From Gemmata massiliana (lineage in GTDB: Bacteria > Planctomycetota > Planctomycetia > Gemmatales > Gemmataceae): a stretch of 64,000 nt of DNA. The notes beneath the pieces were generated by a model. That model saw nothing but the letters and a program-made list of their open reading frames with translations. It made no database searches and had not been told where the DNA came from. The translations under genes were made by a program, and so were the position numbers. The DNA is taken from positions 184,671 to 248,670 of the forward strand of contig HG799463.1 in NCBI GenBank assembly GCA_000531095.1, in the 5' to 3' direction. Position 1 is the stretch's first letter. Each line of letters opens with the position of its first letter. Shown here piece after piece: positions 27,862-57,297 of this stretch.

Positions 27862-27972
27862 TGCGTAAGGCGGCTGGTAAGAAGTGGAACGATTGCCACG
27901 AAAACAAGGGCGCTAAAGGCTTCATTCTGGCACTGACTCAATCGGCCGGAATTCCGGCCGATTCACTTCTCC
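27858..27972 (+). pseudogene. KilA-N domain fragment
   Basis: About 35 codons, KAAGKKWNDCHENKGAKGF then TQSAGIPADSLL, match the N-terminal part of KilA-N DNA-binding domains. Homology stops near 27972 where the convergent gene ends, so the domain is truncated. The fragment at 44664-44858 (minus) is a longer relative. The codons for SAGIPADS form a perfect 24-bp palindrome (27940-27963). Confidence 0.75.
27940..27963. repeat. 24-bp perfect palindrome in KilA-N coding sequence
   Basis: AATCGGCCGGAA followed by its exact complement. It encodes the conserved KilA-N turn GIPA. The matching place in the copy at 44.75 kb differs from perfect symmetry at two positions. Confidence 0.85.
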
Positions 27973-35681: not shown

Positions 35682-36346
35682 CGGTCGCTCCGGCAACTCG
35701 GCTTGCTCCACCCGGTCGTCTTGAACACCCGCTTTGAGTTGATCGCGGGTGCGCGCCGGCTTACCGCGGCAAAGAAACTGGGTTGGACGGAGATCCCCTG
35801 CCGCGTCGTCGACACGCTCGACGACGCAGTGGCGGCGCTCCAAGCGGAGCGCGACGAGAACACATGCCGTGAGCCTTGGACGTTCGACGAACTGGTGGAA
35901 GTGGGGCGCCGGATCGAGAATCTGGAAAAGCCCAATTCCGACCGCCGCAAAAAGGCCGGTAGGGGCACCGAACCATCGGGAAAATTTCCCGATGGTACTG
36001 CCGGCCGAACACGGGACAAAGTTGGCGCTGCGCTCGGAGTAAGCGGGAGAACCTACGAGAAGGGCAAGCAGGTATCCGAGGCTGCGGAGAAGGAGCCGGA
36101 GAAGTTCGGTGACCTACCTGCGCTCGCTGATTCGCAAAGTATCGACGCAGCACACAAAGAGTTGAAGCGTCGGCGTGGGCAATCGACCAGCCCTCCGCCT
36201 CCCACACCCCCGATCGTGATTCACGCGCCAGACGTGCTGGCTCCGGCCCCGAGTCGGGCCGACGACCTGCGCGCGCTCGCGGACGCACTGCTCGTCTTGG
36301 CCGCATTCGATGAACAGCTTCAGCGGTTCCGATACCTGGAGGAACT
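35682..36346 (+). pseudogene. ParB-like nuclease/partition protein, both ends truncated
   Basis: In frame from right after the preceding stop: RSLRQLGLLHPVV, FELIAGARRLTAAKKLGWTEIPCRVVD is the ParB/Srx N-terminal core with GARR, and DEVENTCREP-like DENTCREPWTF the helix that follows. Then comes a variable linker holding a palindrome, TRDKVGAALGVSGRTYEKGKQV (HTH region), and a charged C terminus. There is no start codon, and the reading drifts into the next gene near 36346. The protein is of the phage/plasmid ParB type. The truncations may be natural or may come from bad joins. Confidence 0.75.
35972..35996. repeat. 25-bp palindrome in ParB-like coding sequence
   Basis: ACCATCGGGAAA, one central A, then the exact complement. 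It is in frame and encodes PSGKFPDG in the linker just before TRDKVG. Confidence 0.85.
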
Positions 36347-36355
36347 TACGGTCGC

Positions 36356-37192
36356 TCACCCGAGCGGTGCCCAGAGCGGGTTGTAGGGCGCACCGGGCGC
36401 GGTCTTCAGCCCGGGCACCACGTAGTGCAAGTTCCAGGACGCGCCGAACGCCGGATACAGGGATTGCCCCACGATCCCCGACTTGAACCCTTCGCCCGGC
36501 GCGCCGGTAGTAATCAGGACGGCCGGGAACCCGTCCACGGATACCAGTTGCGGGTGCGGGATGTCGAACCCGTACCGGACCGCGCGACCGGTGATGTAAA
36601 CGTGAACGGTCGGCGTGGTGCGGTACTGAATGCCCGTGTCGCCCACTCCGTTCGGCCCCGGGAACTCGGCCTGCAAACTGCCCCGGGGCGGCTTGGCGAC
36701 CTGGGGCAGCGCGTTGTTGGTGCCCAGCGGAAGGCGCCCGATCTGCCCGACGTTCCACGTGTCGGCGCGCAACTCGGCGCGCGTGAGCGGCTCCTCGGGG
36801 AGCGTCTTGACGACTATCGCCCCGGAGTCGATCACGACCCGGGAGTACACTTCGTAGTGCAGCCAGCTCGAGGCTTTGGTCGGCGCCAGAGCCGTTTGTA
36901 ACTGTGTGAAGAACTGCTGTGCGACCGCGGCCCCGAGCGCGGCCCCGAGCGGCCCGATGATGTTGACGTTCCCCTCGCGCGCGTCGTGGGTCGGGGGCGG
37001 GGTTTCGGCCCGGCACAGGTCAATGATCTTGTCGTCCCCCACGTCGAACCGCAGCCCGGCCCCGCCGCGCGGGCCGAACGAGGTGGCCGTGGAGTTGGCC
37101 CAGAGCCGGTAGTCCGAGTTCGGAATGGGCTTCCACAATCCGGTCGCGCCCAGGGCCGCGGGCAGGTATATGCCAGCTATTTCATACGTCAT
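36356..37192 (-). CDS. phage-like structural protein, C-terminal part (split by linker)
   Basis: 278 residues from the internal Met of MTYEIAGIYLPAALG. It has no known motif; beta-rich with Gly/Pro turns and a helical Ala-rich stretch (GPLGAALGAAVAQQFFTQLQTAL). In the cell it should not start here: the upstream half at 37222-38322 ends with the same MTYEIAGIYL sequence, and only a mutated linker and a 133-bp duplication keep the halves apart. Joined, they give one protein of about 600 residues. Confidence 0.7.
   Translation of the reverse strand: MTYEIAGIYLPAALGATGLWKPIPNSDYRLWANSTATSFGPRGGAGLRFDVGDDKIIDLCRAETPPPTHDAREGNVNIIGPLGAALGAAVAQQFFTQLQTALAPTKASSWLHYEVYSRVVIDSGAIVVKTLPEEPLTRAELRADTWNVGQIGRLPLGTNNALPQVAKPPRGSLQAEFPGPNGVGDTGIQYRTTPTVHVYITGRAVRYGFDIPHPQLVSVDGFPAVLITTGAPGEGFKSGIVGQSLYPAFGASWNLHYVVPGLKTAPGAPYNPLWAPLG
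37060..37192. repeat. artefactual duplication, copy 1
   Basis: Identical to 37239-37371; between the copies lies the damaged linker 37200-37238. The duplication and the linker together interrupt one gene, so the second copy should be removed from the true sequence. Confidence 0.88.
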
Positions 37193-38693: not shown

Positions 38694-38756
38694 GGGGTGA
38701 TCCGGGGTTGTGGGCGAAGTCTCCAACAATCGCACGTACCCGGAGCGGTGTGTTCA

Positions 38757-38776
38757 GAAACGGGAATTCCGGTTTC
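38757..38776. repeat. imperfect 20-bp palindrome
   Basis: GAAACGGGAA then TTCCGGTTTC: nine of ten pairs match. The minus strand reads CETGIPVSEH, again the KilA-N GIPV turn seen at 27940 and 28789. Confidence 0.65.
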
Positions 38777-38807
38777 ACAGAAGTCCGGCACTCCAAATTC
38801 TGGTTGA

Positions 38808-38843
38808 GTCGCCAGCTCCGGCAATATTGCCGGAGCTGGCGAC
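38808..38843. repeat. 36-bp perfect palindrome
   Basis: GTCGCCAGCTCCGGCAAT followed by its exact complement, no loop. The plus strand reads SPAPAILPELAT, like the linker SPAQELIPEPAN at 39053. Confidence 0.92.
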
Positions 38844-39052
38844 GTTTATGGATGACTTTCTGGAACCTGGCAACGCGCTGACCCGGCGACCTGCGTCCTT
38901 TCACTCAACAAGGAACGGCGCCAACTCACGAAGTCGCAGATGGCGATGGTTGGGGCTCGCGCCACGGAACTCACCGAGGAGCTAAAAGACGAAGCGAATG
39001 CGCGGATGAAGGCTGCCGCTCTGCTCGGCAACAAAACACGTCACAAGAAACC

Positions 39053-39088
39053 TTCGCCGGCTCAGGAATTAATTCCTGAGCCGGCGAA
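39053..39088. repeat. 36-bp perfect palindrome in ParB-like coding sequence
   Basis: TTCGCCGGCTCAGGAATT followed by its exact complement, no loop. It is in frame and codes SPAQELIPEPAN immediately before the conserved TRDAVG. The paralogue at 35.97 kb has a different palindrome at the same place. Confidence 0.93.
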
Positions 39089-39178
39089 CAGGGGCCAAAC
39101 CCGCGATGCCGTAGGCAAAACTATCGGCGTTTCCGGGCGGCTGATCGACTTCGCCAAGGTCGTCATGCCGTCGGCGGC

Positions 39179-39203
39179 AGTTGTGGGCAAGATGCCCACA
39201 ACT
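39179..39203. repeat. hairpin, 11-bp arms, loop AGA
   Basis: AGTTGTGGGCA, loop AGA, then the exact complement, inside the ParB-like fragment (AVVGKMPTT). Sister of 28976-29002. Confidence 0.8.
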
Positions 39204-39297
39204 CCCAGCGTGGGCAACTATGTCGGAGATCTCCACAGTTGAAGTCGGCGCAGGACATCAGCATCAGGTGTGCGCCCCCCCCCCCACGGCCAGCAAC

Positions 39298-39329
39298 CGC
39301 CAGTGGGGGAAATATTTCCCCCACTGGCG
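39298..39329. repeat. 32-bp perfect palindrome
   Basis: CGCCAGTGGGGGAAAT followed by its exact complement. One reading is ASGGNISPTGE, similar in place and style to the other linkers. A run of eleven C lies 13 bases upstream (39275-39285). Confidence 0.9.
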
Positions 39330-39456: not shown

Positions 39457-39498
39457 CGTAATAACTTCGTATAGCATACATTATACGAAGTTATACGA
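39457..39498. other. complete loxP mate-pair linker (assembly artefact)
   Basis: The full 42-base linker: CGTA, loxP (39461-39494), ACGA. The genes on the two sides are unrelated, so left and right may not be neighbours in the genome. Translations across it give ITSYNVCYTKL, a known linker-derived peptide in databases. Confidence 0.95.
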
Positions 39499-42783: not shown

Positions 42784-42820
42784 GAAGTCCCCGGAAACAT
42801 TACCGGGGACTTCATTTTTT
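42784..42820 (+). terminator. rho-independent terminator of the pilin gene
   Basis: GAAGTCCCCGG, an 8-base loop, the exact complement, then ATTTTTT. Confidence 0.92.
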
Positions 42821-42961
42821 ACTTCGACGGGGCGGGCCGCGCGAAACGGATCGTGATATGGAGGCGAATCGGTGGATGTGGCCCGGACGCGGAACTGGTG
42901 TTACGCTGTTGCGCATGCGGCTTCTTGCCGCGGCCGCGAAAGAGTTCACGTGGGCTCGGCA

Positions 42962-43303
42962 ATGAACGCACTCACGTTCTGGCGCAGTTTGCTCTCCAAC
43001 AACCGGACCCCGGTGTGGGCCGACACGTGGCCCGAGGACGAACTCCACTGGGCCATGCAGAACCGGCGTGTGATCGCGTTCGGGCACCCACGAGAGGGCC
43101 TCAGCGCCGAAGCGCGTATCGAGTTGATCATGGTCCCGTCCGCCTGGAACCGCGCGAATTGGCCACGGGTCGCGGCATTCTATGGGGCGCTCGCAGACAT
43201 CCCGCCGTTGCGGTGCAGCCCGGCCGAATACCACGAGATCGTTGACTCTGTTTTCACCAACGACCCGGTACTCGGGGATGAACAGCAGACCGACCGCCGG
43301 TGA
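42962..43303 (+). CDS. hypothetical protein
   Basis: 113 residues: MNALTFWRSLLSNNRTPVWAD, a central EDELHWAMQNRRVIAFGHP and a Pro/Tyr-containing end. I recognise no family. The ATG at 42962 was preferred over upstream codons, which read as Arg/Cys-rich noise. Confidence 0.5.
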   Translation: MNALTFWRSLLSNNRTPVWADTWPEDELHWAMQNRRVIAFGHPREGLSAEARIELIMVPSAWNRANWPRVAAFYGALADIPPLRCSPAEYHEIVDSVFTNDPVLGDEQQTDRR

Positions 43304-43449
43304 CCGACATGCGGCAACCGGCTCCGGTTGTTCGTGCGCCGGCGCGAGCAAGGCGGGTACGAGTGGCGCGACGATGAGACCCACGTGTGTCGGAATCCCG
43401 AGTGCGACTGGCCCGGACAAACTGAGACCTATGGGAGCAGCATGGACAA

Positions 43450-43867
43450 TAATCCTGGACTCTACTGAATTCGACCGCGACCGGACGCTGACCTTCACCT
43501 TCCGCTCGTCGATGTTCGCCAGCCACATGATGAGCGTGCGGCGGTCGATCATCACCATTGGCTGAACGCGGCCACTGGTATCGTGCGTGGAGATCTCCTC
43601 CACACACGCCCACGACTTCTTTTTCAGCTTCTGCAACTGCGCGCTGAACGCGAGGCCCATGTTTTCGCAGATCCGCCGGAGGCTCGTCTGGAACGTGCCA
43701 TCGGTGTCCCGAATGGCGTCCAGGGTGTCGGCGTGGAACTGGACCTTAACGAACGTGTTCGGGTTGGCCCCGGAGCTAACCACGTGCAATGTGATCTCGT
43801 GCGAACGGGCTTGTGGTCGGGAATCGACAGCATGACGACCGCGATTCTCGTGATAGATTCGCGCCAC
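43450..43867 (-). pseudogene. P22_AR_N-type antirepressor domain, 3' truncated
   Basis: EITLHVVSSGANPNTFVKVQF, LRRICENMGLAFSAQLQKLKKKSWACVEEISTHDTSGRVQPMV, then MIDRRTLIMWLANIDERKVKV: the N-terminal domain of phage P22-type antirepressors. After SVESRII the reading runs antisense into the gene at 42962, so the C-terminal domain is missing. It is one of several broken antirepressor-type genes here (KilA-N, P63C). Confidence 0.8.
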
Positions 43868-47029: not shown

Positions 47030-48373
47030 TCAGCACCCGACGGCCGCGTTTTCAAATCGGACCACGGGCCGGCGATAGGCGAGCGTCACTTTGCCGGTGG
47101 CCCCGTGACGATTTTTTCGCACGTGTGCTTCGACGCGCAGCAACTCGGCATCGTCGTCTTGACCGGGCGGAACGTGCAACATGATCACGGTGTCCGCGTC
47201 CTGTTCGATCGCGCCAGACTCGCGCAGGTCTGATAAGCGCGGGGCACCGTCCGGGCGCCCCTCGATCGCCCGGTTCAGTTGACACGGGGTCAGGATCGGA
47301 ATGCCGCACTGGCGCGCGATCAACTTCAGGTCGCGCGAATCCTGCCCGACTTGCTGCACGCGGTTCGCGCGCCGGTCGGCCGGCTGCAGCAACTGCAAGT
47401 AATCCAGCGCCGCGAGCTTTACCCCGTGGCGGCGGACCATCGTTCGCACCGTTGCGCCGAACTGTGCCGTGGTAATCGAGGGCCGGTCGTCAACGAACAG
47501 CTCCGCGCCGCCGTAACCGGTTGTCCCCGTGACCGCGGCCAGCTTCGTGACGTCGTCTCGGTCCAGCCGACCCGAGCGGATGCGGTTCAAGCGCACGCTC
47601 GCACCCATCGCGAGGAGGCGCTCCCCGATCTCCTGGCGGGGCATCTCCAAACTCGCCAGGAACGTCGGGCCGGTGGACCGCGCGATCGCGCTGAGCATGG
47701 CCAGGAGCCACGCCGTTTTCCCGACCGCGGGCCGGGCCCCGACAACGATCAGTTGACCGGGACGGAACCCGCCGATGAGTGCATCGAGCAGATCGAACCC
47801 GGACGACACGCCGATCCGACCGGTCGGATCGGCGTGTCGGGCCTCGACTTCGGCAAGCGTCTCGTGCAACAGGTCGTTGAGAGGCACCACAGAACTAGAC
47901 CGACCGGCAGCGGCCTCGAGCAGATCCTGAATGCGCCCCGAGGCCTGGGCAAGAGCCTCTTCCGCATTGCCCACGGGCGGGGCCTCCGTGTCGCGCAAGA
48001 TGACCTGGGCCGCGTGCCAGAGTCGGCGCCGCAGCGCGGCCTCACGGACCTGGAGCGCGTAATAGTCTACGTTCGCGCCGCTGGGCACCTCGGTGAACAA
48101 GTCCGACAGCCACAGCCCCGGGTGCGGCCCGAGGTCCGCGGCCTGCCCGCGCCGCACGAGCACTTCGTACACGTCCTGGGGGCCGCCCGGCTGAGCTCGG
48201 TTGTGCAAGTCTTGGCACGTCGCGAACACGAGCCGGTACGTGTGGTGGTAGAAATCGTCCGCGCCACCGATGTGCCGGAGCGCCGCGTCGACGGCGAGGT
48301 CCGGATCACGGAGCACGGCTCCGGCCAATTGGCGTTCCGCGTTCTCGGGGCGCAGGTGCTCAGGCGGCATCAT
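47030..48373 (-). CDS. DnaB-type replicative helicase
   Basis: 447 residues. The N-terminal helical DnaB domain (residues 8-110: ENAERQLAGAVLRDPDLAVDAALRHI) is followed by a RecA-like core: Walker A VVGARPAVGKTAW at about 212-220, Walker B AALDYLQLL near 315, then CQLNRAIEGR and SGAIEQDADTVIML, the DnaB4 signature. It is typical of phage- or plasmid-encoded hexameric 5'-3' helicases that ride the replication fork. Its start overlaps the end of the replication protein gene upstream (48360), so they are coupled. Confidence 0.93.
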   Translation of the reverse strand: MMPPEHLRPENAERQLAGAVLRDPDLAVDAALRHIGGADDFYHHTYRLVFATCQDLHNRAQPGGPQDVYEVLVRRGQAADLGPHPGLWLSDLFTEVPSGANVDYYALQVREAALRRRLWHAAQVILRDTEAPPVGNAEEALAQASGRIQDLLEAAAGRSSSVVPLNDLLHETLAEVEARHADPTGRIGVSSGFDLLDALIGGFRPGQLIVVGARPAVGKTAWLLAMLSAIARSTGPTFLASLEMPRQEIGERLLAMGASVRLNRIRSGRLDRDDVTKLAAVTGTTGYGGAELFVDDRPSITTAQFGATVRTMVRRHGVKLAALDYLQLLQPADRRANRVQQVGQDSRDLKLIARQCGIPILTPCQLNRAIEGRPDGAPRLSDLRESGAIEQDADTVIMLHVPPGQDDDAELLRVEAHVRKNRHGATGKVTLAYRRPVVRFENAAVGC

Positions 48374-56254: not shown

Positions 56255-56315
56255 TGATATGGGATTCGCCACGCTGCTCAAGGCGTGCGATCCGGTACTT
56301 GTTAACATCCTTAGA

Positions 56316-57297
<982 letters not shown>

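Follow-up and report, generated by a model that had tools for sequence, protein, structure and literature searches.

ParB-like genes of several subfamilies, carried by phages, plasmids and chromosomal islands, in all likelihood (a probability of roughly 0.8) contain a putative site that is read by the HTH of their own product. Palindromes lying within these genes are very probably self-sites, predicted to act as a parS or an operator inside the gene, each being a palindrome of about 22-28 bp in linker codons. The arrangement looks like a lock and key, in which the site occupies a floppy linker beside the DNA-reading domain, and both are inherited and exchanged together. In the window, i.e., the whole 64,000-nucleotide stretch of Gemmata massiliana DNA that was analysed, the palindromes at 35972 and 39053 are very probably such predicted self-sites, the latter within the remnant of a gene whose N-terminal domain is gone, and those at 38808 and 39298 may, as a guess, be the same kind of site for another reader.

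Palindromes of the window and their excess over chance

The sequence-only reading had grouped five palindromes between 38757 and 39329, and the coordinates it gave were exact for all five. Further long palindromes were detected in the window at 27940, 28789, 35972 and 47804. Those that matter most for the argument are as follows.

35972-35996, no strand: 25-bp palindrome (12+1+12), proposed self-site, its end 13 nt upstream of the TRD codons of the HTH
38757-38776, no strand: imperfect palindrome (9 of 10 pairs), resembling the dispersed CGGGAATTCCCG palindrome family
38808-38843, no strand: 36-bp perfect palindrome (18+18, loop-less), intergenic
39053-39088, no strand: 36-bp perfect palindrome (18+18, loop-less), proposed self-site of a subfamily 3 ("SQMAMV" type) ParB-like HTH
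39179-39203, no strand: inverted repeat 11+3+11, with similar repeats elsewhere (L089, L090)
39298-39329, no strand: 32-bp perfect palindrome (16+16, loop-less), in a decayed stretch past the ParB-like fragment

The view that perfect palindromes of this kind are very unlikely to arise by chance was borne out by both Markov and codon-permutation controls. The own genome (G000; 9.27 Mb in 22 contigs) was sampled over 464 kb, comprising the window and 20 further stretches of 20 kb each, of which those from contig C4 had been picked for a known paralog there. Loop-less palindromes with arms of at least 12 numbered 13 in this sample, and its three order-3 Markov copies (1.39 Mb in all) together held 1. 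The arm of 18 at 39053 exceeded every one of 1000 + 1000 copies in the codon-shuffled control proposed by the sequence-only reading, the maximum being 12 in 1000 within-gene synonymous permutations and 8 in 1000 samples from pooled codons, and the arm of 12 at 35972 was equalled in 5 of 1000 copies of each control.

Palindromes of the CGGGAATTCCCG type were dispersed over the own genome (6 places in 9.27 Mb, versus 0 for the reversed pattern), including 28789 in the window and L392-L396; positions 184-227 of L396, a locus on contig C9, form a perfect 44-bp palindrome with two further long ones close by. For the 38808 palindrome, the search of the own genome reported none besides the copy on contig C4. 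A perfect 36-bp palindrome at 47804-47839 lies in a DnaB-like helicase gene (47030-48373, minus strand), and it was rejected as part of the same system: of 27 matches, 16 were fetched, and none of the 15 other dnaB loci of the genus examined had a counterpart. Rfam matches in the window were rRNA and tRNA only; the 16S rRNA match at 56315-57297 spans the whole model in just 983 nt, indicating that a large internal part is missing.

Genes that hold the palindromes

Both 35972 and 39053 sit in the linker adjoining the HTH of a ParB-like gene. The two genes are given below.

35703-36386, plus strand: ParB-like gene of subfamily 1 (ParB_N + HTH; PF02195, PHROG 12047), its frame opening somewhat upstream
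38856-39242, plus strand: ParB-like gene fragment comprising a pre-HTH segment, the palindrome-bearing linker and the HTH, with a stop codon ahead

The TTG-started stretch of the first gene matched PF02195 slightly below the cut-off (E = 4.9e-5) and above it in the genome search. The second gene bears out the sequence-only reading in that the 39053 palindrome is in a ParB-like frame, but the coding sequence is only a fragment without the ParB N-terminal domain, and its copy on contig C4 also lacks this domain, though it stays open for 288 codons. Farther along, an intact P22_AR_N antirepressor-like gene (Pfam) was identified at 42812-43867. Relatives of the first gene were found in 38 of 102 genomes of the order, and those in G009, G011, G051 and others carry a palindrome at the same place with different arms. 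The ParB N-terminal domain was above the PF02195 cut-off in L192, L194 and L195, and a StrR-like member gave a weak match (E = 0.057), yet was ParB by profile and fold. Residues resembling the CTP-binding motif appeared, by eye, to be present in the ParB-like proteins.

An assembly or sequencing artefact was considered, given that the window holds at 39457-39498 an exact 42-bp match to a loxP-type linker left untrimmed, with partial matches at 42-75 and from 40820 onward. The same feature is present in other assemblies, including one-contig and three-contig genomes, complete plasmids and phages. Within the genus, homologous ParB-like genes have palindromes of 29 bp (G009, one contig) and 38 bp (G011, three contigs; a form of the 39053 palindrome), which makes a sequence artefact unlikely. 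This explanation was therefore rejected as having next to no probability, though the linker remnants are real. Around the one at 39457-39498, approximately 265 nt of the C4 copy are without counterpart in the window, and its translation adds spurious residues to the open frames of the region. In addition, a C run at 39276-39287 adjoins a stretch that is absent relative to the C4 copy.

Behaviour of the palindromes in a paralogous region

A second copy of the region is located on contig C4 of the same genome, 83-93% identical in pieces. The counterpart of 39053 there is again a perfect 36-bp palindrome, in which four positions have changed, each matched by a change on the opposite arm, and the 35972 palindrome is at the same place in the C4 paralog gene. 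The palindromes at 38757 and 38808 are identical in the two copies, that at 39179 has decayed to an imperfect one at the aligned place, and that at 39298 corresponds to two related copies, the positional one imperfect and the other perfect (30 bp) at a distance of about 100 bp. A block of approximately 185 bp (about 38719-38903), holding 38757 and 38808, shows no difference at all between the window and C4, and its flanks differ by about 10-15%.

The five palindromes differ in behaviour between the window and C4 and are not one class. Since no encoded protein could be assigned to 38808, 39298, 39179 or 38757, the single cause implied by treating all five as one cluster is unsupported, and a common cause was given up. 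The suggestion that the palindromes are binding sites of the encoded ParB-like proteins is supported for the gene class that contains 39053 and 35972, by the residue-to-base code and the natural swaps described below, and this support does not extend to those four.

As a counterpoint to the self-site reading, both copies of the 39053 gene are truncated, and still the palindrome in it has changed symmetrically since they parted. A perfect palindrome kept in a truncated gene, with four matched changes, would suit a process in which symmetry is maintained by mutation rather than selection, i.e., template switching in hairpins (quasipalindrome correction) that perfects any near-palindrome. Such a process would also fit the outer arms of phage genes with the same subfamily 1 HTH, which differ between phages and are still symmetric; the HTH therefore does not account for all of the symmetry. 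Template switching gives neither a fixed place in the gene nor an HTH-to-base code independent of kinship, and as the general explanation it is quite improbable. It may contribute to the outer arms, where the extra symmetry could come either from hairpin-templated correction or from a second reading part.

Recurrence at a fixed place in three ParB-like subfamilies

Three ParB-like subfamilies carry a palindrome at a fixed place, namely the linker just before the HTH in subfamilies 1 and 3 and the stretch just after the HTH in the StrR-like subfamily 2. The carriers include planctomycetes, cyanobacteria, proteobacteria, Chloroflexota, plasmids and phages (among them Vibrio and Pseudomonas phages and one Staphylococcus phage); the feature is not peculiar to planctomycetes. 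Initial viral scans with single or narrow queries yielded few loci.

For subfamily 2, 183 loci were collected from plasmids, genome contigs and viral contigs, of which 45 were left out as unreadable and 138 were readable, representing 131 distinct genes. Just after the HTH, the best palindrome score was at least 9 in 56 and at least 10 in 41 of the 131 genes, compared with 2 and 0 of 639 same-frame control windows and with 3 and 2 of 655 codon-permuted copies. A score below 6 was obtained for 32 of the 131, and the palindrome was absent from the readable Opitutae-type genes. In subfamily 3 (the 39053 type; 76 genes out of 75 of 87 loci), 61 of 76 genes scored at least 8 at the same place, a level reached by 9 of 151 neighbouring windows and by 18 of 380 codon-permuted copies, and the symmetry extends approximately 12-14 nt from the centre before falling to background level. 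In subfamily 1 (the 35972 type), a score of at least 9 was reached by 21 of 25 genes, many of them close relatives (from 52 loci given), and by 0 of 100 control windows. The family-level codon-permuted controls cover the StrR-like subfamily and subfamily 3. In Planctomycetes bacterium syqfu (L178), the 25-bp site of a StrR-like gene occurs exactly threefold, with 66-nt spacing, within the gene region.

The sequence-only reading had also raised mobile palindromic inserts in coding sequence, comparable to Rickettsia palindromic elements. The palindromes are in frame and in linkers, and dispersed CGGGAATTCCCG palindromes are present in the own genome, both in favour of such an origin. The single fixed place in homologous genes, the differing arm sequences and, by eye, the similar linker length of palindrome-free relatives disfavour this origin, leaving it highly improbable. 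Selection for an mRNA hairpin that acts in translation or in the control of the transcript is likewise very unlikely: a perfect palindrome can fold as RNA, but wobble-type (G-T) mismatch cells were rare (2 of 54 and 7 of 57, against 14 and 19 A-C cells), and the symmetry includes central pairs that would be unusable in a loop (0.92 and 0.96 of 74 in subfamily 3). With the wobble test negative, the mRNA hairpin was set aside.

A code linking HTH residues to site bases

A further argument for sites read by their own HTH comes from covariation in the StrR-like subfamily, where the half-site was anchored on CT...AG in 89 of the 99 genes scoring at least 6. The base two after CT (h2) covaried with residue 141, which opens the recognition helix, with 1.58 bits (z = 23), and with 1.72 bits (z = 18) among 59 dereplicated genes, and the base one after CT (h1) covaried with residue 131 (0.88 bits, z = 19.5). 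Among the top six columns listed, none outside the HTH exceeded z = 7.3. After dereplication at 75%, R131 was paired with G in 33 of 33 genes and other residues at 131 with T in 21 of 23; at position 141, E (15/15) and D (8/8) were paired with C, H (13/13) and R (4/4) with G, and Q (4/4) with A, N being mixed. In leave-one-out prediction, residue 141 gave the right base h2 in 79 of 88 cases (the commonest base 39, the nearest relative 30), and residue 131 gave h1 in 77 of 85 (55 and 51, respectively). At 60% dereplication, the corresponding numbers were 16 of 23 (11 and 5) for residue 141 and 18 of 22 (14 and 7) for residue 131.

Kinship does not explain this code, because h2 follows residue 141 in every populated identity bin: base agreement was 90-95% for pairs with the same residue 141 and 0-25% for pairs with a different one. 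Even among pairs more than 90% identical outside the HTH, h2 was shared by 20 of 22 with the same residue 141 and by 0 of 13 with a different residue. The codons of the code residues lie outside the site without overlap, at a distance of 27 nt in one of the swap pairs described below.

A second code was seen in subfamily 3, so that, as read from the sequences, two subfamilies appear to have one. Base c6 covaried with helix residue +6 (1.0 bit, z = 11.1), as did c3 with +7 (z = 6.3); for c6, A was paired with T in 9 of 9 genes, R with G in 14 of 15 and D with G in 4 of 4, and the window's own gene is one of these. Base c5 was G in 64 of 64. For bases c7 and c9-c12, columns that lie outside the HTH, some of them the site's own codons, were the better predictors (z up to 13.9). 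In a protein model of L132 (mean pLDDT 81), the code residues fall within the opening turns of the two helices of the HTH (110-117 and 121-133) and the stretch encoded by the site has low confidence, suggesting for this one protein that the site probably encodes a flexible linker.

Joint replacement of HTH and site in near-identical genes

In pairs of nearly identical phage genes, the HTH and the palindrome have diverged jointly. L248 and L242 share 371 of 374 nt upstream and also the 97 nt shown past the site, and they differ in HTH residues and in both palindrome halves; farther downstream, an ungapped comparison gave 484 of 762. L213 and L198 are likewise close on either side (96.8% identity across 1015 nt upstream, 94.2% across 591 nt downstream), and the divergent block of about 260 bp between comprises the HTH, the site and some sequence behind it.

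Proposed function and its implications

In the proposed mechanism, the protein would bind its internal site as a dimer and would then probably load as a ParB-type clamp, or simply block the polymerase; binding would limit the protein's own expression and mark its own replicon. Recombination would move the specificity as one cassette, because the HTH and the site lie within about 100 bp.

An alternative is that the internal site serves as a centromere (parS) for ParA-driven segregation and is not autoregulatory. The ParB fold and profile are consistent with this, as are the finding of a single site in each phage contig and plasmid record examined and the location of parS-359 of B. subtilis within parB, as described in the part of PMC4442127 available. 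Specifically, the site was the sole match in 10 of 10 phage contigs and likewise in 2 phage contigs and 3 plasmids; in five draft genomes, a loose site pattern gave 3-13 matches versus 1-12 for the reversed control and overall did not rise above the control. None of the 13 phage records tested, which include fragments, had a ParA-type (AAA_31) match, and StrR-type members are known activators, both of which speak against segregation. AAA_31 genes were present in 3 of 3 plasmids and were not adjacent by the coordinates shown. On balance, autoregulation via an internal operator or clamp-loading site is the favoured inference, and we consider the centromere role unlikely.

It also seems somewhat probable that, in several ParB-like subfamilies found on mobile elements, one gene supplies the reader together with the sole address of that reader, and that recombination exchanges HTH and site as one cassette to give mutually blind variants in a single step. 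Such variants would resemble plasmid incompatibility groups or heteroimmunity. On this reading, the code from HTH residues to DNA bases can be taken from the sequences by themselves. If the reading is right, thousands of as yet uncharacterised proteins of the ParB-like and StrR-like types would disclose their binding sites in their own coding sequences, and the residue-to-base code of a ParB-type HTH could be tested immediately. It would further explain how specificity could change in one recombination event without loss of the site, a general difficulty in regulator evolution, and would provide short orthogonal protein-site pairs for laboratory use.

Comparison with known systems

The nearest solved structures are Spo0J, Noc and KorB. 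The KorB and Noc clamps, being the nearest folds, offer a likeness in sequence-specific clamp loading by ParB-like proteins outside segregation, and a site inside the own gene is not reported in the covered part of PMC11790492. The B. subtilis parS-359 in parB resembles the present case in having a ParB-fold protein and a palindromic site, one of them inside its own gene, and according to the portion of PMC4442127 consulted it is one of several sites with one conserved sequence. Here, by contrast, the site varies from gene to gene, adjoins the HTH codons and, among the phage and plasmid records searched, has no second copy.

StrR belongs to a ParB-type activator family whose consensus site is given, in the excerpts of PMC8306873 and PMC8406272 available, as GTTCGACTG-N11-CAGTCGAAC, and is described there as activating promoters at several sites. 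Its CTG-N11-CAG layout is that of the StrR-like subfamily sites, most of the anchored ones being CT(G/T)-N10/11-(C/A)AG; since the layout was used for anchoring, it is found by construction in 89 of the 99 genes scoring at least 6, and it does not apply to the window's two ParB-like genes. Among four Streptomyces genes fetched, one, annotated as a streptomycin biosynthesis protein, has a StrR-like internal site, GTTCAACTG-N11-CAGTTGAAC, immediately behind the HTH within its coding sequence and breaks the residue-141 rule; another has a weaker inverted repeat, and two have none.

Perfect palindromes in coding sequence are also known from Nematomorpha mitochondria (PMC6649704) and from Rickettsia palindromic elements, for which the source portions available describe neither a constant position next to a DNA-binding domain nor a residue-to-base code. 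Rickettsia palindromic elements place a related element at many unrelated places, whereas here homologous genes have unlike sequences at a fixed place. Internal self-sites as a rule in ParB-like genes were not found in the parts of the open-licence literature covered. Judged from the sequences, the kind of system, a ParB-like protein with a palindromic site, is already known, and the gene-specific internal site would represent a variant of it.
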